A stretch of DNA of 32,753 nucleotides from a virus. The position numbers and the translations under genes were made by a program. Below the pieces are notes generated by a model. It had not been told where the DNA came from. It ran no database searches and saw only the letters and a program-made list of their open reading frames with translations. The DNA lies in the IMG/VR virus record IMGVR_UViG_3300013111_000333, positions 1 through 32,753 of that record, one strand, 5' to 3'. This document shows, piece by piece, positions 8,203 through 32,447 of the stretch; positions within the stretch are counted from its first letter, which is position 1, and every line of letters starts with the position of its first letter.

Positions 8203-11200
8203 TTACGTAAGAAACGCATTTGCATTTCTAGTCAGTCCTCGCCGTTGCATATTTTGATTTAGTCTTTCTACTACGCGGTCGGCAATTCGATTTATTTCTG
8301 GTAAAACAGTAGAATCTAGATTTCCTGTAACGGTTATAGGCATCAAATTTTCTATAATCATACCATCTCCCCCGTACATCTCTGCACTTGTTCCTAACAT
8401 GGATGGTAGTAGCGTGTTTATAAAGCTTTCCATTTGTGATTGAGTGGTGACAAGTTCTCCGGATAGTAATTTAGCTACAACCTCATTACTACCTTTTCCA
8501 TCGACTATTCCGCCCGTATGATAACTCGGCATAGAAACTCTTGTACCTGTCCCTATAGCGTCTATATTTGCTATTTTAGATTCGATATATCTTTTATAGT
8601 TCTGATATTCGGCATCTAGAGCGGCCTCTTGAATATCTATTCTTCTGTCAGCCTGTGCCTCAGCAATATCTAAAGTAACCTCGGCAACCTCTTCTTCTAA
8701 AGCTCTCCGTCTTGCGGCGGCTTCCTCGGAATCGTCTAGTCGAATTTCTTCAATTTCGGCCTGTAATCTTGATAAATCGGACTGCTTCGCAGAGAGTTTT
8801 CTCTGATAGTCCAACTCATCCTGCATTGTTTTGAGAAGTTCTTTTCGAGTATCGATTACTGCTTTATAGGCCCGAAGCTTTTCTTTAAGGGCATCTTTCT
8901 CAGCGTCTTGCTGTGCTTTGAATGCCTTTTCAGCCTCGTCCGCGGCTTTCTTCGCGGCGGCCGCTCCTGCTTTGGATGCCTTTTCTTTTTCTTTCTCAGC
9001 ATCTATTGCGGCCTGTTTCGCTTCATTGTACGTATGAGTTAAACTTCCGAGAGTATCTGCGTAGTTCTCGGCCTCTTGCGCCGCACTTTTAAAGGTTCTT
9101 GGTTCTCCAAAAACCCCTTCGCCATAGTCTCCCGCCCCAAAGTCCCTTTGGAATGTCTCGAAATTACTTCCAACATCTCTAAGCATGTCGGTTAAGCTTT
9201 TGGCCTTTTGATTTCCGTATTCGCTTAATCCTCCCCACCCAGAACCAATAGTAGGTCTGGATACGGATATGTCTGCTCCGACCTCGATTGATAATCTATT
9301 AGGCCATGGTAGGTTCGCACCTAGTATATTGATAGTACCCATGTCTAATATCGGAACAAAATTGATTGACGCATTAAAACTATCAATCATATCTGCTAAA
9401 CGAACTATCATACTACCAGCGCCGTTTACAACAGCCTCTATCATTTGTCCGGTAGTATTAGCACTTTGATTAGCTAAAATCTGGAAACTTCCATCTACCC
9501 GAGTAAGATATCCTAGAATATCATTTGCACTTCTAAGAGCATTCCCGTTCGCCTCGGTATACATGATTCCGCTGGCTTCCATGGCATGAGCCACAAGCTC
9601 CATTTGCTCATTATATGCCCTTGTTCCAAACTCTAAGCCTTCTTCTGTAACCTGTCGCATTGTATCTTGGACAATTACATTCATTTCTTGCGCTTCTCGA
9701 AGAGAGTTCACGCCATCTGTAATATTGGATATGGCCTGACTTACAACATTATCCGTCCCAAGAAAGGTCTCAGATATCTCACCGATACGAATAAATACAT
9801 CTCCCAGTTCAGAAAGAGAATCCGTATATTGGCTAAAGCTTAGTTCTCCGCTCTGCCATAATTCATTTATGTGGCCCAAGCTTTCTGTTGAACCTTCTAC
9901 AAGTCCGGTAAAGAATAGGCTTGCGGCCTCATCGTTATTTCTAAAGACATCCGTCATGTCGAGAATGTCTAACTGTTGTTCTATTTGTTCGAAATATTCA
10001 TCGGGAGCCAGAACGCCTTCTCGGAACATTCTATTCAGGTCACTAAAGCCCTGAACCAGATTATCTATCCCGACATCTCCCGCACCCTCTCCCGAGGTCA
10101 TTTCTAAGAGCTTTTCGAATACTTCATTAAACTCTGACATTCTGGTGATATTCTCACCAGCAATCTCCCTCAATAGCTTTTGACGATAAATATACTCGTC
10201 TAACTCTTCATTGAGAGAAAACATTGTTCTATCAAGAAGCTTAAATCCTTCCGCCTGCATTGTAATGGTTTCCCCATGGACATTCATCTCATAGGTTAGT
10301 TTTCCATTTTGGTCAACCGCGTAGCCGGTGGCTTTAGCAACCTTCGATAGATTCGAAATCCATTCTTCCCATGACCCTGAATTCTTGGCAATGAGAGGTA
10401 ACATTTCCTTAAGAGCATTGTCTAATATGTCTTGCTGATTTATAAACGGCTTTGCCCAAGCAGGAGCATCCTCATAAGCCTGCTTTATTCTGTCAAGCGA
10501 ATTAACATACTCTGTTACAACATCGTCAAAGTTGTCAGACTCTTCTGCTGTTTTTCGTACAAGTTCGCCAACTACCCTACCCGCTTCTTCCTCGTGAGCG
10601 TTTAATTCGGTAACAAAATCTACAATTGCTAGAGTAGCCGCGCTTATAGCTGTAACAATCGCTACCCAAGGATTAGCGGATATGAAAGTATTTAGTCCCC
10701 CGGCCGCGAAAGCTCCTCCTGCAAGCAATGCGAATAACAAGCTGAGAGCATCCGTTAGTCCACCCAACTGAGTAATAAACTCGCTTGCTCCAGCAGACGC
10801 ATCATAGAATGCCGTTACTAAACTGCTATCAATAGTGGTCTGCCACATTTCTTCCCAAGATGCTCGGGCTTTGTTTTGAGCAGATTCTACACCTTCTAAA
10901 TATATAGCATATCGTTCAGCCGCTAGTCCGTCTGAATCGCGTGACTCACTGAGTAAGCCCAATATCATCTCTTCATTTTCCATTAATGTCAGGAAGATTT
11001 CTCTCTGACGTACACCGGCCATTGCCTTAGATATATTAGCTTGTTCAATTTCAGTAAGGTCATCCCATACTGTGTATAGCTCTTTTAATACATCTGAGAA
11101 ATCTCTAAATTCTCCAGTATGTCGATTAACTATCGACATATTTTCACCAGATGCAAGCGTAACTCTATTCAATGCCGCCTCAACATTGTTGAGGCTCATT

Positions 11201-11257
11201 CCTGTATCGTCTATGGCTCCATGTTTAATATCTTGGAACCTAGCGAACATTGTCCTG
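8203..11257 (-). CDS. Tape measure protein, exon 2
   Basis: Exon 2 supplies the third base of codon 298 and the rest of the 1315-residue protein. The first residues after the junction, RTMFARFQDIKHG, complete the conserved tape measure motif. About 165 residues into exon 2 a hydrophobic stretch (LSLLFALLAGGAFAAGGLNT, then NPWVAIVTAISAATLAIVDF) probably crosses or inserts into the host membrane at infection. Near the C-terminus a long charged coiled coil (KAADEAEKAFKAQQDAEKDA onward) is followed by an ASMPSYHTGGIVDG-like segment (here VSMPSYHTGGIVDGKG) common to tape measure proteins. An ATG at 11250 opens this frame, but it has no good ribosome site and is internal to the spliced gene. Confidence 0.9.
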
Positions 11258-12800
11258 CTTTTCTGTTACTTGGTGTTTCTTTTATGACCTTGTTTTCTTA
11301 TTCAAGGCGGGACAGGTACTTCCTAGAATGTCTTTATACATTCGACCCATCCTCTGCGATTTCATAACTCTCTGACTTTTTATAGTCGCAGTTCAGACTG
11401 TTGCATATTCTCTTACGAGAATTCTTTTCGCTCAGTCGTTTTTAGTAAAACACAATTATTATTTTTCAAATCTAGGAACAATTCGTTCCCTATTCAACAC
11501 TAGTTTCCCTCTATCGATTTTATAATTCATCGAATGATAGTTCAAGAGCTTCCCATTTCTCTCAACAAATCTCAGTATTAGTTTCTCACACATTTCAGGA
11601 AATTCTTCAATATCTTTTTCCCATATGTACAGAACAGTAATACCATTTCTTTCAAGGAATAACTTTTTCTTTTTATCTTTCTTATCAGCCTTTTCTTGTA
11701 TCTTATTTATTGGCTCTGGGTAAAGTCTAACATCTCCATGCCAATATCCCCCTTGTATCTCAATGGACAGTCCCTTTCCCAAGTAACAATCTAATAAATA
11801 TTTTCCCGATGGATATTCTGTTCTATACCAAATTCTATTTTTTCTTAGTATATCCACAGTAATTCTATGAGGAAGAGTCATTGTATTTGATTGACTTTTT
11901 AAAAGACATTTTTTAGAACAATATTTTTTAGTTTTATCCTGATACGGTTTAGCCCGAATTACTTTTTTGCATTGTTTACATCGTCTATTTCTTTTGGATT
12001 CTGGATAAGAGTGCTTATAATTTGGAGAATTTTTCCCTCGTCTATTTTCGGACTGCCATTTCCCTTGACATTTCATAGAACAAAGAATGAGCTTATCGCT
12101 TTTCTTACATAAGAACGTTTTTCCACATTCTTTACATATTCTGGAATCTTCATTTTTCTTTATAACAAATTTTGATTCGCATTTTTTGGAACAAAATGAA
12201 TTTTCTCCTCGATGTTGCCAAACACTTCTTTCAAAACTTTTCTCGCAATAAGAGCATTTTATAGTTTCCTTTTTCGCATGAGTATGACCATATGCGCCCT
12301 TACATTTATTTGAACAAAAATAATGTTTCGAATGTTTTTTAGAAAATTTTGTTTCGCAATTTCTACAAAATCCTTCTTTTCCTATTCCTATTTTATTTTT
12401 ATGTTTTCCCGCACAGGAAAATGAACAAAACTTCGTATATTTCTCGTTGGATATAAAATCCCTTTCACATTCAAGGCATTTATGACGATAATCTTTAATA
12501 TTTCTTTTTCTCCATGCCCTAGATTTACATGCACCAGTGCAATAAATTTTTTTTACATTTCTAGCGTCAAAAGTATTTCCACATTCTTTACAAGTTTTTT
12601 TGAATACCTTTTTTCCCATAAAGGCTCTCCTTGTGTATTTATACATTTTTTAATAATTGTGTTTTTTCTAATTCGTTGTCTCAAAGTCATTGAGGTTTTC
12701 GAGTTGTCTTGTTTGGAATGGGCCAAACAAAACTTCAGAAAAGATTTTTCCATGAGGATTATGTATTATTCCTCAACTGCCTCCAGAAATTCAAAAAATT
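11258..12800 (-). mobile_element. Group I-like self-splicing intron in the tape measure gene
   Basis: The 1543-base intron begins after a U paired to G and ends in G (11258), as group I introns do. Stems visible on the minus strand: P1 and P10 (see splice site), a P2-like hairpin at 12753-12775 (TGAGG/CCTCA), a hairpin with a GNRA (GTAA) loop at 11407-11422, and perfect hairpins at 11326-11343 and 11288-11307. A 14-base inverted repeat (12652-12665 with 11447-11460, AATAATTGTGTTTT) closes a peripheral loop that carries the whole endonuclease gene. The P3-P8 core was not resolved by eye. Excision joins TT to C, giving Phe298, and restores a 1315-codon frame. Confidence 0.87.
11459..12619 (-). 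CDS. Intron-encoded endonuclease with six zinc fingers
   Basis: The 386-residue protein would spread the intron by cutting intronless copies. It has six consecutive zinc fingers of the form C-x2-C-x13to17-C-x3-C: C10/13/27/31, C48/51/65/69, C85/88/102/106, C122/125/143/147, C162/165/180/184 and C214/217/234/238. A NUMOD3-like piece (RRGKNSPNYKH) lies near 193-203. The C-terminus (about 250-335) is a Vsr/EDxHD-like nuclease: D277 in KYLLDCYLG, then E287-IQGGYW-H294 and D296, and a final KKLFLERNGITVLYIW strand-helix. An earlier in-frame ATG exists, but the start at 12619 has GGAG seven bases upstream. The stop lies in the intron's 14-base inverted repeat. Confidence 0.85.
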   Translation of the reverse strand: MGKKVFKKTCKECGNTFDARNVKKIYCTGACKSRAWRKRNIKDYRHKCLECERDFISNEKYTKFCSFSCAGKHKNKIGIGKEGFCRNCETKFSKKHSKHYFCSNKCKGAYGHTHAKKETIKCSYCEKSFERSVWQHRGENSFCSKKCESKFVIKKNEDSRICKECGKTFLCKKSDKLILCSMKCQGKWQSENRRGKNSPNYKHSYPESKRNRRCKQCKKVIRAKPYQDKTKKYCSKKCLLKSQSNTMTLPHRITVDILRKNRIWYRTEYPSGKYLLDCYLGKGLSIEIQGGYWHGDVRLYPEPINKIQEKADKKDKKKKLFLERNGITVLYIWEKDIEEFPEMCEKLILRFVERNGKLLNYHSMNYKIDRGKLVLNRERIVPRFEK

Positions 12801-12810
12801 AAGGCAGTGC
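12776..12810 (-). other. Group I intron 5' splice site and guide sequence (P1/P10)
   Basis: The exon end ACTGCCTT pairs with GAGGCAGT in the intron guide (12776-12783), with the terminal U·G pair expected at a group I 5' splice site. The five guide bases just before it (TTCTG, 12784-12788) pair with CAGGA at the start of exon 2 (11257-11253), forming P10. Both pairings agree on the splice sites. Confidence 0.85.
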
Positions 12811-13693
12811 CTATCCTAGAACTGGACTGTCTCGTTACGGATGATACAGTTCCCACGTATGCGATTAGTTCGTCTAAGTCTACACCAGCTTTTTGAGCAG
12901 AAACACTTCCTGCTTGAAGAGCGGTTGCCAGTTCTTTTACACTAGTTGCCGCGGCATTATCTACCGCAACTAGTTTACTAACCACTCCTTCTGCTTCCGT
13001 GGCCTCTAGTTTGAATCCGTTCAACACGCTGGTAAGATATTCGGTTGCTTCCGCGGCCTCTACGTTACCTAGTTTGGATAACATAAGAGTAGATTGAAGC
13101 AGTTTATTAGTCTCTTCAATTGTCTTACCCTGTCTTATCCATTCCAACGAACCAGATGCTACCTCTAACGTTGTTGCGCCCATCTGTTGAGCCAGTTCGC
13201 TATAAGTTACAGCAAGTTCGCCTATTTGAGAATCGGTATATCCAGCAACAATCTGGATATTACGCATCTCTTTGTCAAGGTCTTTTATAAATTGGACGCC
13301 CTCTCCAATCTGGGCCATTGCTTTATAAATAAGTCCTAGACCTAACGCGTATTTAGCGGCCTCAGCCGCGGCAGAAAGAAGTCCTTTTGTGAAGAAATTA
13401 GTAGACTTGGCCGACTTATTAGTAACCTCTGTTAAGGTCGTTGTTGTATCAATAGTTCCATCTAATTTCTTATTATATTTCCCGGTTTCTCTAGTGACGC
13501 TTCCGAAAGCATCTTTTCCTGTCGCGCTAAACCGTTTTAATCCGGTTTCGTCAAACGTGGTTCTAATCTTTATATCAGTCAAACCCTTTGCCTTAAGACT
13601 CTGTATTTTCTCTAACAGGTCTTTGTCTAAGGATTTCGAACCATCAAGCTTTGCTTGCATTAATAGTTGATATCTTGTTCCAGGATTTGCCAT
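12801..13693 (-). CDS. Tape measure protein, exon 1
   Basis: Exon 1 encodes residues 1-297 and two bases of codon 298. The tape measure runs through the tail tube and sets its length. The N-terminus is helical, and residues about 95-297 match the phage minor tail (PhageMin_Tail) region: TNFFTKGLLSAAAEAAKYAL, DLDKEMRNIQIVAGYTDSQI, KAGVDLDELIAYVGTVSSVT, then RQSSSRIGTA. Unspliced, the frame would run into the intron and stop at a TGA at 12791-12793. AAAGGAGG lies six bases before the ATG. The protein family always continues after RIGTA with a short FRTMFAR-like motif, which is what exon 2 supplies. Confidence 0.9.
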
Positions 13694-13732: not shown

Positions 13733-14728
13733 TTATTTCAAATTATCTAATTCTTTCCATTCCATATCTTCGATATCTCGGTCGTCATAAATATCCACCA
13801 TTTCGGCTGATTTCCACCCTAAAAGGTGTTGTACAAGGTCTTTCGGTATTCCCCGTTCTCTAAGATAAGTAGTGCATCGATGTCGAAAGCTGTGAGGATA
13901 AACACTTAGTCCCAAATATTCTGAGAAGTGCTTTACCCATCCCCTCATTGTTCCGTCAGTTGCGGGTTCTCCGTTCTTTTTTATAAATAAAAAGTCATGT
14001 TCAATATTCTTGGACTCGAGAATAGTTTCTCTATATTTTTTCCAATTTTCAAAATGTGGAATAAAAATATCTCTGAGAATATATTTCCTAATCATTGTTC
14101 CCGCTTTTCCCCGTCCCTTTGATTTAATAGGGGTAGATGTATGAAGAAAGAGTCCGTCAAAAGCTTTGTCAGCATCATCTATAGTAGATACTGTAAAACG
14201 TAATAGCTCAGAAACTCGCGCACCACTAGCTACCGCGAGAGCAACAAAGCACGCCATTTGGGAATCATATCCCTTTAGATGATATAATAATTTATCTACG
14301 TCTTCATCTGATAATACAGTTTTCTCTCTTCGAATTTCTTTGGGTACAGATTCAATTATTTCTAATATAACATTTCTGAAGTTAGGATATTCTTTATAAA
14401 AGAATTTTACAATAAACTGAGAAAAAGAACTTAAGCAACTTCGCATTCTATTCATTCTCGAGCTACCCCACATCAATTCATCTGATGCATATGCAAAGAA
14501 ATCCGAGAATTCTATTCTCTCTATTTCTATAAAGAATTTATTTTTATTATGAAGAAGGTTCCATGTAAAGAATATCCGTAAATCTGATTCATAGTTCCTA
14601 ACTGTCAATTCAGATACTGACCTGCCTTTGTCTCTCAAGAACTGCTTTGATAATTTTTTATTGTTACCATGAATTTTTTTATCGGTCTGTTCGCCTGTAA
14701 TAATCTTTCGAAAAGTTTTTCTAGACAT
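13733..14728 (-). CDS. Tyrosine recombinase (integrase/XerD type)
   Basis: The 331-residue protein has an N-terminal SAM-like core-binding domain (about 30-125, with LTVRNYESDLRIFF) and a complete catalytic domain. Catalytic residues are R171 (ASGARVSELL), K202 or K204 (TPIKSKGRGK), H279 and R282 (HSFRHRCTTYL), W305 in the LLGWKS position and the nucleophile Y314 (DIYDDRD). It performs site-specific recombination, either phage integration or resolution of multimers. Its place inside the tail operon, beside a RuvC-like nuclease and far from any repressor, is unusual for an integrase. No attachment site was found in the 39 bases after it. Confidence 0.88.
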   Translation of the reverse strand: MSRKTFRKIITGEQTDKKIHGNNKKLSKQFLRDKGRSVSELTVRNYESDLRIFFTWNLLHNKNKFFIEIERIEFSDFFAYASDELMWGSSRMNRMRSCLSSFSQFIVKFFYKEYPNFRNVILEIIESVPKEIRREKTVLSDEDVDKLLYHLKGYDSQMACFVALAVASGARVSELLRFTVSTIDDADKAFDGLFLHTSTPIKSKGRGKAGTMIRKYILRDIFIPHFENWKKYRETILESKNIEHDFLFIKKNGEPATDGTMRGWVKHFSEYLGLSVYPHSFRHRCTTYLRERGIPKDLVQHLLGWKSAEMVDIYDDRDIEDMEWKELDNLK

Positions 14729-15213
14729 TACTCTGCTTCCTTTTGACTAAGATAATGAATTCCCACTGCTACTGCATCTGTTTCGTCATTATTCGCAAAT
14801 TCTTCTTTGGGATATATTTCTTCCACAGCTTCTCTAACAAAATCTTTCTTAACATTTCCTTTCCCGCAAATAGTCTTTTTTACTGAACTAGGAGCGTATG
14901 ACAATGTTTCTATTTCGTTGAATATTAAAAGCATTACCCCCTGGACTTGATAAAGTGCTTGTGTGCTTTTAACAAAACGAGAAAATCCGGATTCATATAC
15001 CATTACATCTGGTTTATATTCATCTTTTAATTCTCTAAATCTTTTCGCAATAATCGAAAGTTTCCTTGCCCGAGACATATTTTTCGGACTTTTTGTTTCT
15101 ATGCTGTACGTCGAAATTAATTTCGGAGGCCAGACATCACTATCGCTTGTATCGAATATCGCTACCCCAGTGCAACTCAATGACGGGTCTATAGCCATCA
15201 ATATTCTACTCAT
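14728..15213 (-). CDS. RuvC-like Holliday junction resolvase
   Basis: The 161-residue protein has the RNase H-fold resolvase signature with all four acidic residues: D9 in MAIDPSLSCTG, E74 in VMVYESGF, and D143 and D146 in NNDETDAVAVG. The GKGNVKKDFV segment at 117-126 matches the conserved GKG/AKK region of RuvC. Such enzymes cut branched DNA during replication and before packaging. A longer frame begins with TTG, but the ATG at 15213 has AAAGGA six bases upstream and is preferred. The stop overlaps the start of the recombinase gene (TAATG), so the two are translated together. Confidence 0.88.
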   Translation of the reverse strand: MSRILMAIDPSLSCTGVAIFDTSDSDVWPPKLISTYSIETKSPKNMSRARKLSIIAKRFRELKDEYKPDVMVYESGFSRFVKSTQALYQVQGVMLLIFNEIETLSYAPSSVKKTICGKGNVKKDFVREAVEEIYPKEEFANNDETDAVAVGIHYLSQKEAE

Positions 15214-15232
15214 CAATTTTCCTTTCAAAAAA

Positions 15233-22676: not shown

Positions 22677-23792
22677 TTACGAAAGGTCAATCATTGCCGC
22701 GAGAGAGTTAGTAGCAACCCCTACGCCCCAAGCTTTATAAAGTGTTGAAACCTGAGTCAGATTGGCATTGTCGAAAGCTCCGCTGGTATTAGCCATAGTG
22801 CTACCTTCTAATACGAGCTTGATTAGTTTATCGTTACCGGGAGCAACAATCCATAGAGACGTATCGCTAATTGAAACAGCGAATTCCGTACTCCAGTCTG
22901 CGACCTGAGGAAGAGCGATTGCATCGTATCCAAATACATTCTTTAGATAGCCAACTTTGACATAATCGCTGGTAACATCGTATCGATAGTTAGCGTCATC
23001 AGGAAGAACGGATTGTAATGCCCGTTGCGTACCCAAAAGAACAGGTTTAGAATTGCCCCATGCCTGTACTTTTTGAGCAAGTCGAACGAAGTCATCTTTT
23101 GACCATCCCGAAACTTTTAATTGAGTATCTCCTGCGGTAGCAGTAAGAGCGGCCATGGCTGTAGCAAAAGCATTATATGCGTCAAGAGAAACCTGACTTT
23201 CGATACTTCGAATAGCTTTAGCTGTGAATGATGCCAGAGATTCCATTCCTGCCAGTACTTTGTATAAAGAAACAGCGACGGTTAGTTCGCGAAGTTCTGG
23301 AAGAATAGTAACTTGACCACGGAACTGCTTACGGATTTCCGACTGTCTCATACCTCGACCGGCTTTAGAAACCACGAATAAGTCACGAGGTTCGATATCA
23401 AATGCGGCTGAATCTCCATAACCAATGCTTCGAACGTCAGTATAGTATCCGATAGTATCAATCAGTGTATCGGGAAGTACTGCGTCAATAAGCTGGTTTA
23501 CAACAGCAAAAGAAGCCCACTTTAAGGTTGGGTGAGATGCCCATGCTTGAAGCGGGAATTCGGAAATATCCTTAATCCCTGCCACACGAAGAATCTCTGC
23601 TCGAAGAGCCGTGTTCAACTGTTTTTCTTTTTCAGAAAACGAAACTCTTTCACCATCAGCATTTGTTGTCTCATAATCGAAATTTTTATCAGTATTCTCA
23701 GAGCGGTACTGGTTCCAATAATCTTGGAACATTACATACAGTTTATCGTTACCCGCCGCGAAATTAGCTACCGAAATAGGTAATCTTTTCAT
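22677..23792 (-). CDS. Major capsid protein (HK97 fold)
   Basis: The 371-residue protein has the size and order of HK97-type shell proteins. An N-terminal charged region (about 1-80) precedes a body with the features of the fold: a long-helix region around residues 180-215 (SLASFTAKAIRSIESQVSLD), the P-domain segment GWSKDDFVRLAQKVQ, the A-domain segment KPVLLGTQRALQSVLPDD, and a C-terminal strand region ending KAWGVGVATNSLAAMIDLS. The protease upstream suggests its N-terminus is trimmed during maturation. TAGGAGG lies six bases before the ATG, and a terminator follows the stop, as expected for the most abundant protein of the particle. Confidence 0.88.
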   Translation of the reverse strand: MKRLPISVANFAAGNDKLYVMFQDYWNQYRSENTDKNFDYETTNADGERVSFSEKEKQLNTALRAEILRVAGIKDISEFPLQAWASHPTLKWASFAVVNQLIDAVLPDTLIDTIGYYTDVRSIGYGDSAAFDIEPRDLFVVSKAGRGMRQSEIRKQFRGQVTILPELRELTVAVSLYKVLAGMESLASFTAKAIRSIESQVSLDAYNAFATAMAALTATAGDTQLKVSGWSKDDFVRLAQKVQAWGNSKPVLLGTQRALQSVLPDDANYRYDVTSDYVKVGYLKNVFGYDAIALPQVADWSTEFAVSISDTSLWIVAPGNDKLIKLVLEGSTMANTSGAFDNANLTQVSTLYKAWGVGVATNSLAAMIDLS

Positions 23793-23848: not shown

Positions 23849-24388
23849 TTATCTAAGGGCTAAGCATTCCATGCGATAAGCCGTAATTCTTTGCGTCCCA
23901 ATGCTTCCTAAGCCAATCGAGATACTAGTAGTAGTCATCAAACGGAAAGACACTACGTTAGCTGTTTGAGTTGCTCCCCAAGTAAGCTGGAAGTCTCCGT
24001 TCGTAGCATTCACAAACGTGTTTGTTGATTTTGTTCCTGTAACTGCGTCAGCAGAAAAAGTAACAATGTCGCCAACCTGAATCTTGAATGCGCTTACAAT
24101 GTCGCCAATAGCGTGTTGTAAGTTACGTGGGTCTGGGTCTAATCCACGATATTTGTCAGCAGTGTTTACTACTTCGGGTTCGTAAATCATCCATAAATCT
24201 TCCAAACCGGGGGCAGAGGTTGCGGGCGCGGTGGCAACCCAAACTTCACTCTCTCCAGCGGTGCTAGACATAGTTTCTAATCTAGCAACGAAACCGTTTT
24301 CTAGTGCTGTAGCGGAAACAACAGGTCGATTATATGCATCTACGTTTTGAGCCGCGATTTTATCCGGTACAATTAATCCATAAGCCAT
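23849..24388 (-). CDS. Probable capsid decoration protein
   Basis: The 179-residue protein lies between the protease and the major capsid gene, the position of head-decoration or stabilising proteins such as lambda gpD. It is rich in Ala, Thr and Val, has no long helices, and reads as alternating beta strands (for example QVGDIVTFSADAVTGTKSTN and SISIGLGSIGTQRITAYRM). No transmembrane segment or catalytic motif is visible. A strong AGGAGG precedes the ATG, consistent with a highly made structural protein. The function is from context; a capsid-associated protein of another kind is possible. Confidence 0.6.
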   Translation of the reverse strand: MAYGLIVPDKIAAQNVDAYNRPVVSATALENGFVARLETMSSTAGESEVWVATAPATSAPGLEDLWMIYEPEVVNTADKYRGLDPDPRNLQHAIGDIVSAFKIQVGDIVTFSADAVTGTKSTNTFVNATNGDFQLTWGATQTANVVSFRLMTTTSISIGLGSIGTQRITAYRMECLALR

Positions 24389-24448: not shown

Positions 24449-26149
24449 TTAATTCCAGAGAGATTCGGAATCAGCTTTCTTATTAAAAAGAGTTTCCATT
24501 CTGATGATTCCGTCATCTTCTTCAACAACATCTTTGGATGCGGCAAAAGCTTCTGCTTTTACTGAGTTTTTCCAACCATCGAGAGTTTCCAAGGTAAAAT
24601 TCTTAGACTCTTCTCTGGCAACAGAGACGGCATCTTCTCCTAAAACAGGTAGAACCTCATTCAATACGCTGTTTACCTCGAATTCGAATTGTTTAGACAG
24701 AATATCGTTTTTGAATTCAACTAGTTCAGCGAACTCAACTTTCTTTGCTTCAGCCGTTTTGACAAGCATGGGTTCATAAACAATTTCTTCAGCCATGCTT
24801 ATTTCAATAGAAACACTGTCGTCCGTTGAAGAATATTTCATTCTATAGCTCTTACCGTCTTCATAACAATAGACATAAGCATACTCATCATCGTGAGTTT
24901 CTACCCAATATTTTCCATAGCCATAAGAATCTTTCTCTTCTTCAAGAGCTTGTTGAAGCTGATAGTCGATGTTTCTAGCTGTCATGGCGAAAGACATTTC
25001 TTCTTCATCTTCCTCTTCATTTTCTTCTTCGCCACTTTCTTCTTCAGCATCTTCTTCCATCATTACATCTTCGTCCTCTGCTTCCTCTTCGGACTCTTCT
25101 TCGAACTCTGCGACGATAGGTTCTTCAATTTCTTTTTCTTCTATCTTTTTTGACATATTACTATTCTCCTTTTTATCTTTGGCTTTTTCATCATCACGAG
25201 ATATGTCATTTTCGCTTGTTGAGTCGAAATAAGCCATTATTTCTTCGTCTATTAAGTCCATTTCTTTAGAAAGGGTTTTAGACCATACAACTGACGCATC
25301 TCCCCCATATAGTTGCCAAGTTATCCAGCTATCTCCTGACTCGACAAGTGGTCTATCAACAGTTTTTCGTGCAAAGTATTTTGCAATCTGACGAACTTTT
25401 TCAAAGTCCGCTTTTTCATTTTCTACAATATACTTAGCTAAAGAAACAGAGACAGCAGTGCCTCCATACTCCCCCTCAGAACGTAAGTCTAATCCGTTTT
25501 GAGAATTCAATTTAACATCGTCAGGTATTGAAAAATCAAGAGATGCGTATTTCGAGAATTCTCTTTGATACGCTATACTGTATTCTCGCTTCTCTGCATC
25601 TATATCTTCTTTAGAAAAAGATGTTAGTTGAATATTCGCTCCAGGACTAGCGGGAGTGAAAAAGTCTCCAATAACTGTAATTGCGGCATAAGCAAATGAT
25701 AACATCTCTGATGCCCCGGATGAATCATCTTCGGTCTTTTCATATATTTCTATTTCCACTGAAACACTTTTATTTTTGTCAGATGAAAATTCAAACACTT
25801 TCATAAAGTCTCTAGCATACTTTTTCCATATTTTCGCAATAACTTTAAGAGTAGTTCTCCCATCGTCTCTTGTAACAAATTCCGCCGTGTCAGACACAAC
25901 AAAGCCTGCCGGGACTGTTACTCCCTCGTTATGAGTTCCGAAGTCATAAAAGTTGGGGTCAACCTCGAATATAACAGGCTTCTCAAATATGGTATGAGCA
26001 GTTTTTCTCAAAGTTTCTTCTGAACAAATTAAATCATGGAGATTATCTCCTGTTGAAAAAGCTTCGATTTCGGCTGTAGCAAACTGAGAATCACTTAGTT
26101 CGTCAAGTAGTTCTACACCTTCGACAGCAAAACTTAATGTTTTAGCCAA
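24449..26149 (-). CDS. Prohead protease fused to an acidic scaffold domain
   Basis: The 566-residue protein sits before the decoration and capsid genes, where head maturation proteases are found. The N-terminal 200 residues resemble serine prohead proteases: a candidate catalytic His at GTHNEGV (about residue 74) and a candidate Ser in NKSVSVEIE (about residue 130). Residues about 265-300 carry the ITWQLYGGDASVVW segment seen in some phage head proteins. A very acidic stretch follows (about 330-390, mainly E and D), then a helical region to the C-terminus, as in scaffold domains that are cleaved out during maturation. The start is TTG, with GGAGG nine bases upstream. The protease assignment is from position and weak motif matches. 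Confidence 0.7.
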   Translation of the reverse strand: MAKTLSFAVEGVELLDELSDSQFATAEIEAFSTGDNLHDLICSEETLRKTAHTIFEKPVIFEVDPNFYDFGTHNEGVTVPAGFVVSDTAEFVTRDDGRTTLKVIAKIWKKYARDFMKVFEFSSDKNKSVSVEIEIYEKTEDDSSGASEMLSFAYAAITVIGDFFTPASPGANIQLTSFSKEDIDAEKREYSIAYQREFSKYASLDFSIPDDVKLNSQNGLDLRSEGEYGGTAVSVSLAKYIVENEKADFEKVRQIAKYFARKTVDRPLVESGDSWITWQLYGGDASVVWSKTLSKEMDLIDEEIMAYFDSTSENDISRDDEKAKDKKENSNMSKKIEEKEIEEPIVAEFEEESEEEAEDEDVMMEEDAEEESGEEENEEEDEEEMSFAMTARNIDYQLQQALEEEKDSYGYGKYWVETHDDEYAYVYCYEDGKSYRMKYSSTDDSVSIEISMAEEIVYEPMLVKTAEAKKVEFAELVEFKNDILSKQFEFEVNSVLNEVLPVLGEDAVSVAREESKNFTLETLDGWKNSVKAEAFAASKDVVEEDDGIIRMETLFNKKADSESLWN

Positions 26150-26154
26150 GATTA

Positions 26155-26349
26155 TTATCCTCCTTCCTCTATCAGATTTCTTACCCAGTCAGGGCATTCT
26201 TTTATAATATCTTTTAAAAGGGATGTTTGACGAAAATATATTTTTCCATCTTCTTTTTTAAAAGGGGGGACGCCCACCATAATAAGATATTCTTGAACGC
26301 GAGGATGGAAAGATAATAAATCCTTGGTCTGCGCGTTTATTACATACAT
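26155..26349 (-). CDS. Small protein of unknown function (64 aa)
   Basis: This short gene fits tightly between the ferritin and protease genes, with 6 and 5 intervening bases. No good Shine-Dalgarno sequence precedes it, so it is probably translated by coupling to the ferritin gene. The protein is mixed in charge and has a YFRQTSLLKDII segment followed by CPDWVRNLIEEGG, which suggests one or two helices. I do not recognise the family. The tight spacing supports its being a real gene. Confidence 0.6.
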   Translation of the reverse strand: MYVINAQTKDLLSFHPRVQEYLIMVGVPPFKKEDGKIYFRQTSLLKDIIKECPDWVRNLIEEGG

Positions 26350-26355
26350 TTATTT

Positions 26356-26841
26356 TTACCCCAGGGCCGTATCCCATAAAGAGATACTCACCCAGTCATC
26401 TCCGAAAGTATTGACCTTATCTACAAAATCCAACGCTTCAGAATATTCTGTTTGCTGAAGAAGTATCATTCTTCTACAAAATTCCTCCGCCACAGGACAA
26501 GATTCATCGATGGCTAATTCTTTTATTGAGTTAAGAGATTTTGTGGTAATTACTTCTCTATTTAAATATTTATTCGCCATATCTGTCAATCCAGAGAATT
26601 CAGATGAAGCAGTGAGTATTTGTGGAATATCAAATGTTTTCCCCAAGTCTGAAAGAAACATGGCGATTTGTATAGAATGAGATGTTTCTTCATTGTGCTG
26701 GCTCAAAAACAGAGATGCTAGATTACTCAACCCTTTAGATTCAAGGTAGCTATACATGCATAAATAAATATTCGCATTAAGCTTCTCTTCAGCAATCTGT
26801 TCTTGAAATGCAGAAACAATACTGGTTGTCAATAATTTCAT
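26356..26841 (-). CDS. Ferritin-like iron-storage protein
   Basis: The 161-residue protein has the length and four-helix layout of bacterial ferritins, which oxidise Fe(II) and store it as ferric mineral. By-eye comparison with E. coli FtnA places every ferroxidase ligand: E19 (EQIAEEKLNA), E52 and H55 (SQHNEETSH), E96 (YLNREVITTK), Q129 and E132 (LLQQTEY). The helix B core YLESKGLSNLASLF is also typical. It is the first gene after a terminator and is followed at 6 and 5 bases by the 64-aa gene and the protease, so it is transcribed with the head genes. GGAGG lies 12 bases before the ATG, a long spacing that may lower translation. Iron handling in the host or loading into the head are both possible; the latter is speculation. 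Confidence 0.85.
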   Translation of the reverse strand: MKLLTTSIVSAFQEQIAEEKLNANIYLCMYSYLESKGLSNLASLFLSQHNEETSHSIQIAMFLSDLGKTFDIPQILTASSEFSGLTDMANKYLNREVITTKSLNSIKELAIDESCPVAEEFCRRMILLQQTEYSEALDFVDKVNTFGDDWVSISLWDTALG

Positions 26842-26872
26842 TATATATATTTGCCTCCGCAGTCATATTAAG

Positions 26873-26903
26873 AAAAGCCGGTAAAACAGGATTACCGGCT
26901 TTT
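26873..26903 (-). terminator. Rho-independent terminator after the beta-helix gene
   Basis: A perfect 12-bp stem (AAAAGCCGGTAA paired with TTACCGGCTTTT) with a 7-base loop, followed on the minus strand by TTTTCTT. It lies between the stop of the beta-helix gene and the ferritin gene. Confidence 0.88.
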
Positions 26904-26925
26904 CACATTCTAATTATTATTAATT

Positions 26926-27912
26926 TTAGGTTACTAATTCGACCGCTACACCGGACAAATCTGCTCCACTAACAGCGTTCATATTCCCTAAGAAAACATC
27001 TCTATCATTTGCGTCTAATTTAGTTGAACCATAAATCATGCAATCTTTAAATAAGATTCTTCGGGGTGCTCCCATGCCCGTAGGGGCAACGAAAGCACTG
27101 GTCATCGCGTTTGCTGTATGGTTATTTGTAAAAATGCAGTCTTTAAAGATATTATCTCTATCAATGCCCGTTGAATCAGCAACTTCCATAAATGCGGCTC
27201 CGGCATTACCGGCGCGCATACGAACTGTGCAGTCTTCAAATGTGTTTCTATGAGCTTCGCCGTCAAACAAAATTCCGACCATTCCTGTAGCCGCGTCAAT
27301 AGTATCCACACCAATGGTACATTTAACAAAAGTATTTTCTTCTGCGCCATTCAAATGAAGAGATGCGCCGCCGTTGACGGCTTGAGTCGCGTGGCCTCCG
27401 CCAGCAAAATGGACGTTTTCAAAATAATTACGACCACCGGTAACAGAGACATTGATTAAGCTAGTAGCATCGTCTACACCTTGGAAAATATAAAAATCTT
27501 TGAAAATACATCCGGATGCCGAAATCGTAAATAACGGGCTTGCTCCAGTTAAGGTTGATAATTGGAAAAGGCGCGCGCGTTGAGCTACGCGAGTTGGAGC
27601 ACATGCACCAATAAAGTGCGTATAGCTTTTTGCCCAAGTCGCGGCGGCTTGTAATGTAACGCTTGTGTTATTTCCAATATATACTAAAACATCGTTTTGA
27701 TTAGCTGTCAATGCTGCATAAGCTGTTTCGTAACTAGCAAATGCTGAACCAGGAGCGAGACCGTCATTAGCACTGTCATCGCCATTCGCGGCATCTAAAT
27801 AATAAACATCTCCCAGCGGGCCGATTTGACCCAGAAGGGTTCCTATTTGAGCGCGCTGATGAGCGGCGTTAGAATTATTTAATTGAGTCACTTGCAGTGA
27901 AGTTAAAGCCAT
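26926..27912 (-). CDS. Right-handed beta-helix protein in the head module
   Basis: The 328-residue protein starts with a short helical segment, then YYLDAANGDDSANDG near residues 37-51, the usual entry to pectate-lyase-like beta-helix domains. Beyond about residue 125 it has repeated rungs of the form F-[KE]-[DN]-[CV]: FKDFYI, FENVHF, FVKCTI, FEDCTV, FKDCIF, FKDCMI. This fold is common in phage adhesins and depolymerases, which bind or cut carbohydrate. Here it lies between portal and protease, where a capsid decoration or head-fibre role is more likely; that is inference. No catalytic residues can be assigned. AGGAGG lies nine bases before the ATG, and a strong terminator follows 22 bases after the stop, so it can form its own transcription unit. 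Confidence 0.75.
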   Translation of the reverse strand: MALTSLQVTQLNNSNAAHQRAQIGTLLGQIGPLGDVYYLDAANGDDSANDGLAPGSAFASYETAYAALTANQNDVLVYIGNNTSVTLQAAATWAKSYTHFIGACAPTRVAQRARLFQLSTLTGASPLFTISASGCIFKDFYIFQGVDDATSLINVSVTGGRNYFENVHFAGGGHATQAVNGGASLHLNGAEENTFVKCTIGVDTIDAATGMVGILFDGEAHRNTFEDCTVRMRAGNAGAAFMEVADSTGIDRDNIFKDCIFTNNHTANAMTSAFVAPTGMGAPRRILFKDCMIYGSTKLDANDRDVFLGNMNAVSGADLSGVAVELVT

Positions 27913-28009: not shown

Positions 28010-29602
28010 TTATTTATCTTGTTCGTTTCCACCATCTTGACGAGTCTGTTCGCCGCTTTCACTAATTTCATCTTCTGATTTTTTTGGCGCACCAACTTCA
28101 TCATCCGATGACATTTGAGAAGACATTTTGATTGGGGTTAACTTATCTACCCAACCAGACGCAACAGCTTCTTCCATTTGTCTCTCCATTTCAAAAGGAG
28201 ACATGCCCATAGCGGCACTTATCTTTTGAGGAAGAACGATTCCTCTATCTGAAAGTAGGAAAGCGTTTTCTAATCTTCTTTTACTATTTGTATAAAATTT
28301 ACTTCCTTCAAAAACAACTTTGAATTTAAATTTATTTGTACGTTTATTAATATGCCAGTTTAAAAAGTTCTCAAATTGTGGGTACACAGACGTTACCAAT
28401 ATCTCATCAACAGCTAAAGATAGCTGAGTTTCGAGAGTGTTTGGTTTAACATCATTGGCAAATAACAAGTTTGAACTTGCCCCACTTGCTCCCAAGGTTG
28501 TTCTAAGATACGATGAACGTATATCTGGGTCACTTTTCCAATCGAAGCCTTGTACATTTTGAAGAGGGGACGCGGCCACTTTTACGGCCGTGGAATTGAT
28601 TGCCGATTGTACAAGAGCCAAGAATTTTCCTAACAAATCGGGAGTAATAGAAATTCTGTCTTTTATTGCCGCTTTAGAATCTAAAATTAGTGGTACTTCT
28701 CCAATCATTATTTTCGACGCGGCGGCCATATAACTACTTTTTTGCAATGCTCTAATAGTTCCTTCGTTTACTATATCAGGAAATAGTCCTGCGAAATAAG
28801 GAATTCTAGTCGCCATTTCAGGAGTAAACTTAAAGGCCCAAAAACCATCGATAGGGGAGCAATCCACGTATTGAGAAAATCCGTAGTTTCCGCGAGACAG
28901 AATGCTATCTGAAGGATTGTACGAGCCTTGATTCATTTTCCCCTTTCCCAATTTATTCAAAGTTTCTTTAAATATTGGGGGATAGAAGTCTATATCTACG
29001 CCGCCCTGTAAGAAATAATAATAGTCAAAGCTGAACAGAATCCCATAATCCCATCTTCCTGTTATTTTTATCCTATCCGAAGGTAACTCTTGTAACACAT
29101 ACTTTTCCCCTTCGTCTCTAAAAACGGAGAAATGGCTTTCTTGTCGAAATAGTTGTCTAACGACTTTTCCGAATTCTTCCTTATAATCAAACGAATCCAT
29201 AAAATCTCGGAATATTTTTAAATCTTTCTTATATCCTAATTTCGAATAATCTTTCATCTCAGCATTTACACATGTATATGTGAAATCGAAAGACAGAAGA
29301 TTTCCCATGTAGGAAAGCAATCTCTTGTAAAGAGGGAACGTAATCTCGAAAGATTCGCTGATTCGCTGTAATTCCCGCTCGTTATCTTTAGGAGAATTTA
29401 AAGCATCGGTAACTTCGTCCTCTGTGACATCCCCTGTATCAAGTAGGGACACGTCTTTAAGACGTTGATTGAGAAGGTCAATGCTCAGAGGCATACCGGC
29501 CAGTCCTAGGCCAGTGCTTTCTCTGGCAAAAGTCAGAATGTCCCATACCTCTTGTTCGGAAATTTCATTCGTATTTGATTCAGAAGGTTTTTCAGTTGTC
29601 AT
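28010..29602 (-). CDS. Portal protein
   Basis: The 530-residue protein follows terL by 45 bases and has the size and features of siphophage portals, which form the dodecameric DNA gate at the capsid vertex. The N-terminal third is acidic and helical. The central region alternates strands and helices and includes a phage-portal-like segment near residues 290-330 (SYMAAASKIMIGEVPLIL). The C-terminal part contains SKRRLENAFLLSDRGIVLPQ followed by a hydrophilic, Glu/Gln-rich tail, as is usual for portals. A GGAGG lies about 11 bases before the ATG. The call rests on length, order and overall composition; no single diagnostic motif exists. Confidence 0.85.
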   Translation of the reverse strand: MTTEKPSESNTNEISEQEVWDILTFARESTGLGLAGMPLSIDLLNQRLKDVSLLDTGDVTEDEVTDALNSPKDNERELQRISESFEITFPLYKRLLSYMGNLLSFDFTYTCVNAEMKDYSKLGYKKDLKIFRDFMDSFDYKEEFGKVVRQLFRQESHFSVFRDEGEKYVLQELPSDRIKITGRWDYGILFSFDYYYFLQGGVDIDFYPPIFKETLNKLGKGKMNQGSYNPSDSILSRGNYGFSQYVDCSPIDGFWAFKFTPEMATRIPYFAGLFPDIVNEGTIRALQKSSYMAAASKIMIGEVPLILDSKAAIKDRISITPDLLGKFLALVQSAINSTAVKVAASPLQNVQGFDWKSDPDIRSSYLRTTLGASGASSNLLFANDVKPNTLETQLSLAVDEILVTSVYPQFENFLNWHINKRTNKFKFKVVFEGSKFYTNSKRRLENAFLLSDRGIVLPQKISAAMGMSPFEMERQMEEAVASGWVDKLTPIKMSSQMSSDDEVGAPKKSEDEISESGEQTRQDGGNEQDK

Positions 29603-29647: not shown

Positions 29648-31477
29648 CTAAACCACACCAAAAGCTCCGACCCACGAGTCCAAATCATCTTGGTCATCAT
29701 CGTCCTTTAATAACTCTTGGTCTAAAAGTGACACATAGTAATTCAGATAAGATACAGATGAATATCTATCTTTTCTTCCTCCGGACGGTTCTACAAGTTT
29801 GATATTTTCGCCTCCTGTGAGGCTCATATCTAGACTAATGGCTTCGTTTATAAGCAATGTCGTATTTATATTCGGTGACAGCAATAGCGCCCTTGATTCC
29901 GGGTCTTTGCCAGACACGTCTTTATTTTTCTTTTTTATATATATTTCTTCTTGAGTTGTAGCATCTACAAGAAACCGTAATAACTTTGATTTCAACCTTG
30001 TTCGAAAAGCAGATGCTATTTCACTATTCAGTGCCGCCGATGCAGAAATAGGATAGATACAAGGAACAGCATCTTTAGATGCGCATCTCCCACTCAGTTC
30101 GTCATATTCCTTGTCCGATATTGTTGAATGCATCATAACTGTCATAGGTTCGTAATCAATGTCTCGCTCATCATCATGAGTCACTGTAGTCAGCGTATCG
30201 TACAAAAATATTCCTACGTTAAGAACATCCAGTACCAATACATCGTCTGGAGAATCGAACCCGCAGAATTCATGGAATATTTGTTTTATACGAAGAGTTT
30301 GTTGAGATACATTTTCTCCTGAATGAACTTCCACATACACTATCTCTGTAACCCATCCTTTTTTACTAGGAAATAGTCTTGCACAGGAAATAACGGTATT
30401 GTCGTTTCTGCTACCACCTTTTGCGGCGACATCTATTGCAACTACTCTTATTTCCCCCAGTTTTCTCGGTATCCCATAAGGATTTTTCCCTTTTACATAA
30501 TTAGGCCCACCAAGTCGAATAGGTATCCATGCTCTTTTTAGACTTCTTTGGAAAAAATCTAATTTATAGAATGAACGCGAGCTTCCTCCAAAGGGAATGT
30601 TGCCGTATTCCATATCAAAAGTTATAGAGTCTAAAGTATCTTTTTCATTCTTCATTTGTTTCTTAGTTTTTATACCGTGTTTCAGAAGTATAAGATAGTC
30701 TAAGAAAAAGGCTTTTACATCATCGCTTCCTCTCGCAATAGACAGTAGTCTTTTCTTTGCTTCTGCGAACCATTCTCCACTCTTATAGTGAACACTCGAT
30801 ATAGTTATTTCTTGAGGCTCCTCTATGAGATGAGAATATGCAGGGTCTTTCATATAAGGAGGAGTGCGCGCTACAAGAAAGGGTCTAATTATCGAGTCTA
30901 TAATTTCCGACGGAATAAGTCGTCTTTCCTCTAATATACATATATTTGAGCGATGACCTCTTCCAGACTCGCCAGAAATAACTACATTTATCTTCGAGCC
31001 ATTATGGAAGTTTACCTCCCACTTGTTTACATTCGTCGTTATATTGGATATTTCTCTTGTAACATTTGGGTAATCGTTATAAAAAGACTGTATTTTCTCA
31101 GAAATAATCAATCCGGCCTGAGCCTTTGTTGAGCTACTTAATGATACTATTGTCCCAGGATATAGGATACATTTTGCAACCGTATAGGCTCCAATAAGCC
31201 AAGATTTTGCTGAGGCTCGCGATGCTAGACCTAAGAATATAGTAGACTGAGAAATAAGATATACCCATATTCTTTGATATGGATATAAATTTACTCCCAT
31301 ATAGTGCTGAATAAATCTATGAATATTATTTCTATAGAATGTTACCCAGTCTTTGATGTTATTCTCCCTATCTTTATCTAATTTCTCCGATAGAGGTATA
31401 GTCCTAGTTCTTTTAAATACATCTTTTGATTTGCGGTTTCTTTGTGCTGTATTAGACTGATAATTCTTATGGCTCAT
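29648..31477 (-). CDS. terL: Terminase large subunit (packaging ATPase/nuclease)
   Basis: This is the motor that pumps DNA into the prohead and cuts concatemers. With the start chosen here it has 609 residues. The N-terminal ATPase shows a Walker A-like loop at 83-92 (GLASRASAKS, with R87 and K91) and a Walker B-like strand at 179-184 (ICILEE) that ends in two acids. The C-terminal RNase H-like nuclease has D349 in VVAIDVAAKGG and D417 in VLVLDVLN. An in-frame ATG lies 42 bases further upstream, but the ATG at 31477 is preceded by GGAGG with a six-base spacer, so it is preferred. The start overlaps the end of the upstream gene, which suggests coupled translation. Confidence 0.93.
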   Translation of the reverse strand: MSHKNYQSNTAQRNRKSKDVFKRTRTIPLSEKLDKDRENNIKDWVTFYRNNIHRFIQHYMGVNLYPYQRIWVYLISQSTIFLGLASRASAKSWLIGAYTVAKCILYPGTIVSLSSSTKAQAGLIISEKIQSFYNDYPNVTREISNITTNVNKWEVNFHNGSKINVVISGESGRGHRSNICILEERRLIPSEIIDSIIRPFLVARTPPYMKDPAYSHLIEEPQEITISSVHYKSGEWFAEAKKRLLSIARGSDDVKAFFLDYLILLKHGIKTKKQMKNEKDTLDSITFDMEYGNIPFGGSSRSFYKLDFFQRSLKRAWIPIRLGGPNYVKGKNPYGIPRKLGEIRVVAIDVAAKGGSRNDNTVISCARLFPSKKGWVTEIVYVEVHSGENVSQQTLRIKQIFHEFCGFDSPDDVLVLDVLNVGIFLYDTLTTVTHDDERDIDYEPMTVMMHSTISDKEYDELSGRCASKDAVPCIYPISASAALNSEIASAFRTRLKSKLLRFLVDATTQEEIYIKKKNKDVSGKDPESRALLLSPNINTTLLINEAISLDMSLTGGENIKLVEPSGGRKDRYSSVSYLNYYVSLLDQELLKDDDDQDDLDSWVGAFGVV

Positions 31478-32447
31478 CGTCATCCTCCAGGACGCCGTCG
31501 CCATCAATATCATAGCCATCTTCTACTAGGTCGAAGTTTGATGTACCTGTTAGATAGTTTCGTATGGGTCTGACAATATAGTTATCGTAATACTTGTGGA
31601 CATCGTCTACATCGAAATGCAGGTCTTTCCCATCCTCTTCTAACCATTGAGCAGGAGTCTTTTTTTCTATCTCAGCTATCCACATACCGAATGTATCTAC
31701 AGATTTTCCACTGCTTGCGGCATTTGCGTGTGCTGGAGAAATAGCCAAATCTTTCATTAGTGCCATTAACTGCTTTTCTAGATTACCAACATTCTTTCCG
31801 CTAACATCTTCTTCGTTTCTGATAGCTAATATCTTTTTACAAACACGCTTCAAAAGTACTATATCTGTATATGTTTCTGGAGAATAACTTTGTTTGAAAT
31901 TAGAATACTCTGTTTCTAGAAATTCTAAATCCTCCAAAGAATACTTATCTCCCCAGAACTCGTTAGGAGTAGAAAGCTCATTATTCATTTCGGCAATAGT
32001 TTCTTTTGAAACAGTATTGAAATTAAATGTCATATCATGCGATGATGGGGAATCCATCTTTTTTCCCCTAGCATACATTGCCCCTAGTCTCATTATATAT
32101 AAAGAGAAGGGCTTAGGAGCTTTTCTATTACTAGACTGTGCATTATTAATTTGATTCCGTACACTATCTACTACCGCAGTATCATATACGATATTAAGTA
32201 TTTGACAGAGTCTCAATATTGCCTTGTCCAAAGTTCTTTCTACGAGATAATGTTTATCATATAGTTCTAATATGCATTCTTTGCATATACTAAAAAGTCC
32301 GTTAGCATCGAGAATCTTGTCCGTGGCCGTGTAGAATTCAGTGTACTTTTTGTTTTCCATGCACTTTCTACAATAACTTTCTGTTAACACTACGCCTGTT
32401 TTAGATTCCCATGGCTTTATCTTAGTTCTTTTTGAACGCGTAGCCAT
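31467..32447 (-). CDS. Zinc-finger protein in small-terminase position
   Basis: This 326-residue protein lies directly upstream of the large terminase and overlaps it by 11 bases, the usual place for the small terminase subunit, which recognises packaging-site DNA. Near the N-terminus two CxxC pairs (C26/C29 and C55/C58) can form a zinc finger. The middle is helical and the C-terminus is very acidic (DGDGVLEDDDEP). AAAAGGAG sits nine bases before the ATG. A helix-turn-helix typical of small terminases is not obvious by eye, so the function rests on position and on the zinc-finger N-terminus. It could also be a DNA-binding packaging accessory protein. Confidence 0.6.
   Translation of the reverse strand: MATRSKRTKIKPWESKTGVVLTESYCRKCMENKKYTEFYTATDKILDANGLFSICKECILELYDKHYLVERTLDKAILRLCQILNIVYDTAVVDSVRNQINNAQSSNRKAPKPFSLYIMRLGAMYARGKKMDSPSSHDMTFNFNTVSKETIAEMNNELSTPNEFWGDKYSLEDLEFLETEYSNFKQSYSPETYTDIVLLKRVCKKILAIRNEEDVSGKNVGNLEKQLMALMKDLAISPAHANAASSGKSVDTFGMWIAEIEKKTPAQWLEEDGKDLHFDVDDVHKYYDNYIVRPIRNYLTGTSNFDLVEDGYDIDGDGVLEDDDEP

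Follow-up and report, generated by a model that had tools for sequence, protein, structure and literature searches.

The window, by which we mean the whole stretch of DNA analysed here, corresponds to an IMG/VR record (32,753 bases) with the class linear and may therefore be a fragment. Its head genes follow one another, in the direction of transcription, as a 326-aa gene, terminase, portal, a beta-helix gene, a hairpin, ferritin, a 64-aa gene, a 566-aa gene, a 179-aa gene and the capsid gene (Table 1). Six nucleotides separate ferritin from the 64-aa gene and five separate the latter from the 566-aa gene, with about 60 nt before each of the next two. The earlier note on this DNA had described the genes from ferritin to capsid as a tight unit following a terminator. 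The unit is real, and the hairpin upstream of it is a probable terminator, although it is missing from the results of a consensus terminator scan, owing to the location of its U run within the stem. As to the names that the note had given to the products, that of the capsid is backed by the evidence in Table 1, whereas protease, decoration protein and HK97 fold received no support from profile or solved-structure searches, and the 566-aa protein had no sequence match in the PDB.

Table 1. Head gene region of the window, in the order of transcription
Feature	Position	Strand	Evidence or remark
Terminase large subunit	29648..31519	minus	phrog_2, E 5.4e-16
Portal protein	28010..29602	minus	phrog_2739 portal, E 1.8e-47
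Beta-helix protein between portal and ferritin	26926..27912	minus	Pfam Beta_helix, 6.4e-6
13-bp hairpin between beta-helix gene and ferritin, probable terminator	~26872..26904	minus	-23.2 kcal/mol, z -4.3
Ferritin, 161 aa, complete diiron A/B site	26356..26841	minus	ORF, Pfam, PDB sequence match, alignment, AlphaFold, Foldseek
64-aa conserved small gene	26155..26349	minus	after ferritin in most relatives
566-aa head gene	24449..26149	minus	phrog_3313; putative protease or scaffold, by position only
179-aa gene	23849..24388	minus	phrog_4147; decoration role inferred from position
Major capsid protein	22677..23792	minus	phrog_4088; position and PMBT24 homologue annotated as major capsid protein

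The beta-helix gene beside the portal looks modular and head-fibre-like. The first ~30 residues of its product (MALT..QLNNSN..HQRA.IGTLL) recur at the same place in another locus (L005), where the C-terminal part is unrelated, and similar short N-terminal anchors are found in loci L011, L021, L033, L059, L069, L076 and L081. The 64-aa gene stays beside the head genes with or without ferritin, and its counterpart in Thomasclavelia phage TR-TP1 is annotated as DUF5659. Elsewhere in the window (8203-13693), an endonuclease-like frame rich in cysteine (11459-12646) stands between two tape-measure-like frames (12791-13693 and 8203-11250), an arrangement suggestive of a homing endonuclease having invaded the gene. 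Tyrosine recombinase-like and RuvC-like genes lie within the tail gene cluster (13733-15228); the recombinase is situated likewise in SPbeta-like and Sundance phages, and the RuvC in PMBT24. In a genome scan for hosts of the window phage, the three metagenome bins returned belong to dissimilar organisms (Woesearchaeota, Brachyspira and Methanosphaera), and no host is indicated by it.

The window ferritin and its diiron site

The open reading frame that the earlier note had taken for a ferritin, giving no strand, does exist; it is encoded on the minus strand and starts with ATG. Pfam Ferritin (PF00210) matches its product with 50 bits (E 3.8e-13), the curated cut-off being 24.5 bits, and the top sequence match among solved structures is an archaeal ferritin (1.2e-12). 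Structure prediction, which had been proposed as a check, gave an AlphaFold model with pLDDT 90.5 in which the ferritin four-helix bundle (residues 6-35, 39-65, 85-112 and 116-146) is followed by a short fifth helix (150-160). The top matches of this model in a Foldseek search against the PDB are all ferritins, with TM of about 0.9 and a maximum of 0.94.

The six ligands had been named correctly: E19, E52, H55, E96, Q129 and E132 align with E17, E50, H53, E94, Q127 and E130 of the E. coli FtnA site, and Y26 is the equivalent of FtnA Y24. A third iron site, C, is not common to all ferritins. In the window protein the C site of FtnA (E49, E126 and E129) is incomplete, since E51 is retained while L128 and T131 replace E126 and E129. 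Sequence, model and ligand conservation together make it nearly certain that the gene product is a true non-heme ferritin of the FtnA type. It is also likely to be competent as a ferroxidase.

A conserved ferritin slot in related phages

The capsid protein matches those of Enterocloster phages at 37-38% identity and those of SPbeta-like and Sundance phages at 23-24%, and an alignment search of IMG/VR with it yielded 80 loci. With an iterated profile run on the ORFs of these loci, a ferritin-like gene was detected in the slot of most of them. Our survey set comprises 53 loci, all found through the capsid only and differing in its sequence, in which the portal, the homologue of the 566-aa gene and the capsid are all visible. 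Among these 53, which are distinct at 100% capsid identity only, so that some are near copies, 36 carry a ferritin-like gene beside the head genes (29 with a complete diiron site and 7 degenerate) and 17 carry none. In a wider set, including loci fetched via ferritin itself, the gene is present in 45 of 66.

The position of the gene is constant. In every ferritin locus with both flanks visible, it comes after the portal and is followed by a small gene of ~65 aa, by the homologue of the 566-aa gene (~570 aa) and by the capsid. In about ten loci its start overlaps or abuts the stop codon of the portal gene, at a distance of -4 to +8 nt, from which we infer that the ferritin would be made late, alongside the head proteins. 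Loci devoid of ferritin frequently keep the 64-aa gene, and their portal-adjacent slot may carry a short protein with the shared N-terminal anchor. When larger phage records were searched as a whole with Pfam, ferritin matches were located in the slot, with one weak exception inside a 1647-aa frame; records with an empty slot, many of which may be fragments, had no ferritin elsewhere in the same search.

Such synteny decides against host contamination or a stray recent acquisition in one assembly. Several 'phage' records with ferritin matches do resemble pieces of bacterial chromosome (e.g. L001). Yet the region of the window recurs on a second contig with 99.98% DNA identity and 100% identity of the ferritin protein, dozens of diverged phages possess the gene at the same place, and the diiron site is conserved among proteins whose mean identity is 37%. 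We therefore reject this explanation, the probability of which is negligible. The sole record in the phage collection that matches the window ferritin is MT838721 (L001, 1-4944); although it is filed as a bacteriophage, its gene content is that of a piece of bacterial chromosome, with a normal cellular ferritin.

Within the intact class, distances between ferritins correlate only weakly with those between capsids (Mantel r 0.24, p 0.0006), which makes a certain amount of swapping likely. In our tree the sampled cellular ferritins form a single group, separate from the intact phage ferritins; this cellular sampling comes mostly from one phylum and is too thin for naming a donor. The gene is best read as one that was recruited into the head module of a clade of large tailed phages (siphophages) and has long resided there. 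As 17 of 53 relatives have no ferritin, it is not required for head assembly as such.

Intact and degenerate ferritins

By their ligands, the slot ferritins divide into two sharply separate classes. The distribution of ligand counts is bimodal: the window protein and 35 phage relatives (36 in all) possess all six, 15 proteins possess one to three, and there are no intermediates. Among the 36 intact proteins, 11 of 165 FtnA positions are invariant, and seven of these are E17, Y24, E50, H53, E94, Q127 and E130; part of the ligand invariance follows from the definition of the class by its ligands, the bimodality does not. The degenerate class retains the H53 position, has invariant positions of its own and includes isolated phages (Enterocloster PMBT24, CB457P1 and CB473P1, Thomasclavelia TR-TP1). 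Both classes are under purifying selection, dN being well below dS for intact genes (0.033/0.53, 0.051/0.53 and 0.032/0.57) and for degenerate ones (0.38/1.66).

The degenerate proteins are relatives of ferritin, as three kinds of evidence show independently. Pfam Ferritin matches one of them (locus L058) with 31.1 bits, which is over the cut-off, and within a small set of ORFs a profile built from the degenerate class only picks cellular ferritins (1e-8). The AlphaFold model of a degenerate protein has pLDDT 93.6, and the top of its PDB list consists entirely of ferritins, with TM 0.8-0.89. Profile-profile comparison of the two classes gave E 3e-6 with deeper alignments and no signal with five intact against five degenerate proteins. 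The degenerate class was missed when a profile of intact proteins alone was used for a direct search, and homology at the sequence level therefore rests on Pfam, on the comparison of profiles and on the search in the reverse direction. Relatives of the PMBT24 protein, of which one search returned none, were found by an alignment search. The degenerate class thus retains the ferritin fold and the slot, without the diiron ligands.

The earlier note had held that relatives without the gene or without its ligands would refute its reading. Both kinds do occur in our survey (17 and 7 of 53, respectively). They speak against the view that the function shared at the slot is iron loading, but say nothing against a ferroxidase activity of the intact class. 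The degenerate class having no diiron site, ferroxidase at the canonical site cannot be what the two classes have in common. The simplest shared function is then a physical one, during assembly of the head or within the particle; we give it an even chance. That some phages have kept the slot ferritin after loss of the site hints at a service to the head beyond iron chemistry. The protein probably forms a shell or a smaller oligomer, which would act on or in the assembling head as a partner of the portal or prohead, or as an internal protein. Ferritins of the intact class would additionally oxidise and store Fe(II), keeping iron and peroxide off the DNA under packaging. The head-associated role would be common to both classes, ferroxidase activity having been kept by one and lost by the other. 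Rather unlikely, in our estimate, is that the ferritin was recruited as a head building part or internal cage, such that intact particles carry an iron-oxidising shell and the degenerate form is purely structural.

It counts against a head role that position in the slot can by itself mean just late expression. A late-expressed ferritin might be a free, soluble 24-mer in the host cell, outside the particle, its place among head genes reflecting late transcription only. It would take up Fe(II) from host iron proteins being broken down and thereby limit Fenton damage to phage DNA, or else starve host functions. The invariance of the diiron site in 36 phage ferritins agrees with this, the absence of the gene from 17 of 53 loci fits an optional fitness gene, and other phages, e.g. 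Thermus phage phiLo, have their ferritins located elsewhere. This main rival accounts well for the intact class. Left unexplained are the one constant slot, never exchanged for another place, and the preservation of a site-less class in it by purifying selection. We consider a soluble ferritin a serious possibility, short of a probable one.

Encapsulins carry ferritin-like cargo, and this, together with the neighbourhood of the capsid gene, had led the earlier note to speculate about iron loading into the head. The ferritin would then be a cargo that brings iron into the phage head, or particle iron would serve host entry (Ferrojan Horse). A protein called ferritin-like by Phyre2 in particles of Kuttervirus Sajous1 (PMC10892097) is in favour of this, being the sole virion evidence for a phage ferritin that we found in the literature; it comes from a different phage group, and Sajous1 was independent of TonB/FeoB in the single host tested (PMC10892097). 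Moreover, no targeting tail follows the ferritin body: in the representatives compared, a C-terminal extension of the encapsulin-cargo type was not found, the phage proteins ending near FtnA residue 158 (helix E region). Nor is the ligand-less class able to oxidise iron at that site. Iron cargo is therefore improbable.

The finding of the earlier note is confirmed and extends further than was seen there, and a role of the ferritin in the head is plausible. So far, phage ferritins have been regarded as auxiliary genes of scattered occurrence. A fixed slot in the head module of dozens of diverged phages, occupied by catalytic and site-less forms, allows us to ask if ferritin serves as a part of the capsid, if iron belongs to the design of phage particles, and how an enzyme turns into a structural protein. 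The isolated phages of the degenerate class (PMBT24, CB457P1, CB473P1 and TR-TP1) make the question of a head role approachable.

Comparison with known ferritins

Annotations of phage ferritins, including that of PMBT24 in the slot, are already known. The authors of PMBT24 place their ferritin ORF39 under other functions and do not comment on its position (PMC11035940). Ferritin-like proteins are mentioned in relatives of Clostridium phage phiCP26F (PMC4981718), giant viruses of eukaryotes also carry ferritin according to the literature, and a reference list includes the title of a survey on viral ferritins from 2015. In the literature searched, openly accessible papers other than preprints, we found no previous account of the conserved slot, of how widely it occurs or of the division into two classes.

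PMBT24 ORF39 and its homologues in CB457 and CB473 occupy the same slot, behind the portal and ahead of the genes for the small protein, the long head protein and the capsid, but differ from the window ferritin in belonging to the degenerate class, their diiron ligands having been lost. The same applies to the 'Ferritin domain-containing protein' of Thomasclavelia phages TR-TP1 and TR-TP2, which is situated in the slot adjacent to a DUF5659 gene, is degenerate and was named in the record via structure alignment. Gp217 of Kuttervirus Sajous1 (PMC10892097) and the protein of Thermus phage phiLo are likewise phage-borne ferritins or ferritin-like proteins, but lie beside tail or other genes and not between portal and capsid. 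A0A8D9C9X5 and A0A8S5Q7U4 from BFVD are ferritin or ferritin-like proteins of phages as well. In BFVD, the window ferritin model also has weak fold matches to ferritin/Dps-like regions in two viral 'prohead protease' proteins (A0A6J7WIS1 and A0A6J7WPK9), hinting at further links between the ferritin fold and phage heads.

With FtnA-type ferritins (Archaeoglobus fulgidus 1S3Q, Thermotoga maritima 1VLG and SynFtn) the window protein shares the fold of four long helices plus a short fifth, all A/B ligands and Tyr24. It differs from FtnA in keeping the E49 equivalent without the C-site residues E126 and E129, in its short C-terminus and in being encoded in a phage head operon. Encapsulin systems with ferritin-like cargo (EncFtn, IMEF, EncB/EncC) resemble our locus in that a ferritin-like gene is found beside a shell gene. 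Unlike their cargo, the phage ferritin is a classical full-length one with no targeting peptide, and unlike an encapsulin-type shell, which is without portal and terminase, the shell encoded in the window is a phage capsid accompanied by both.
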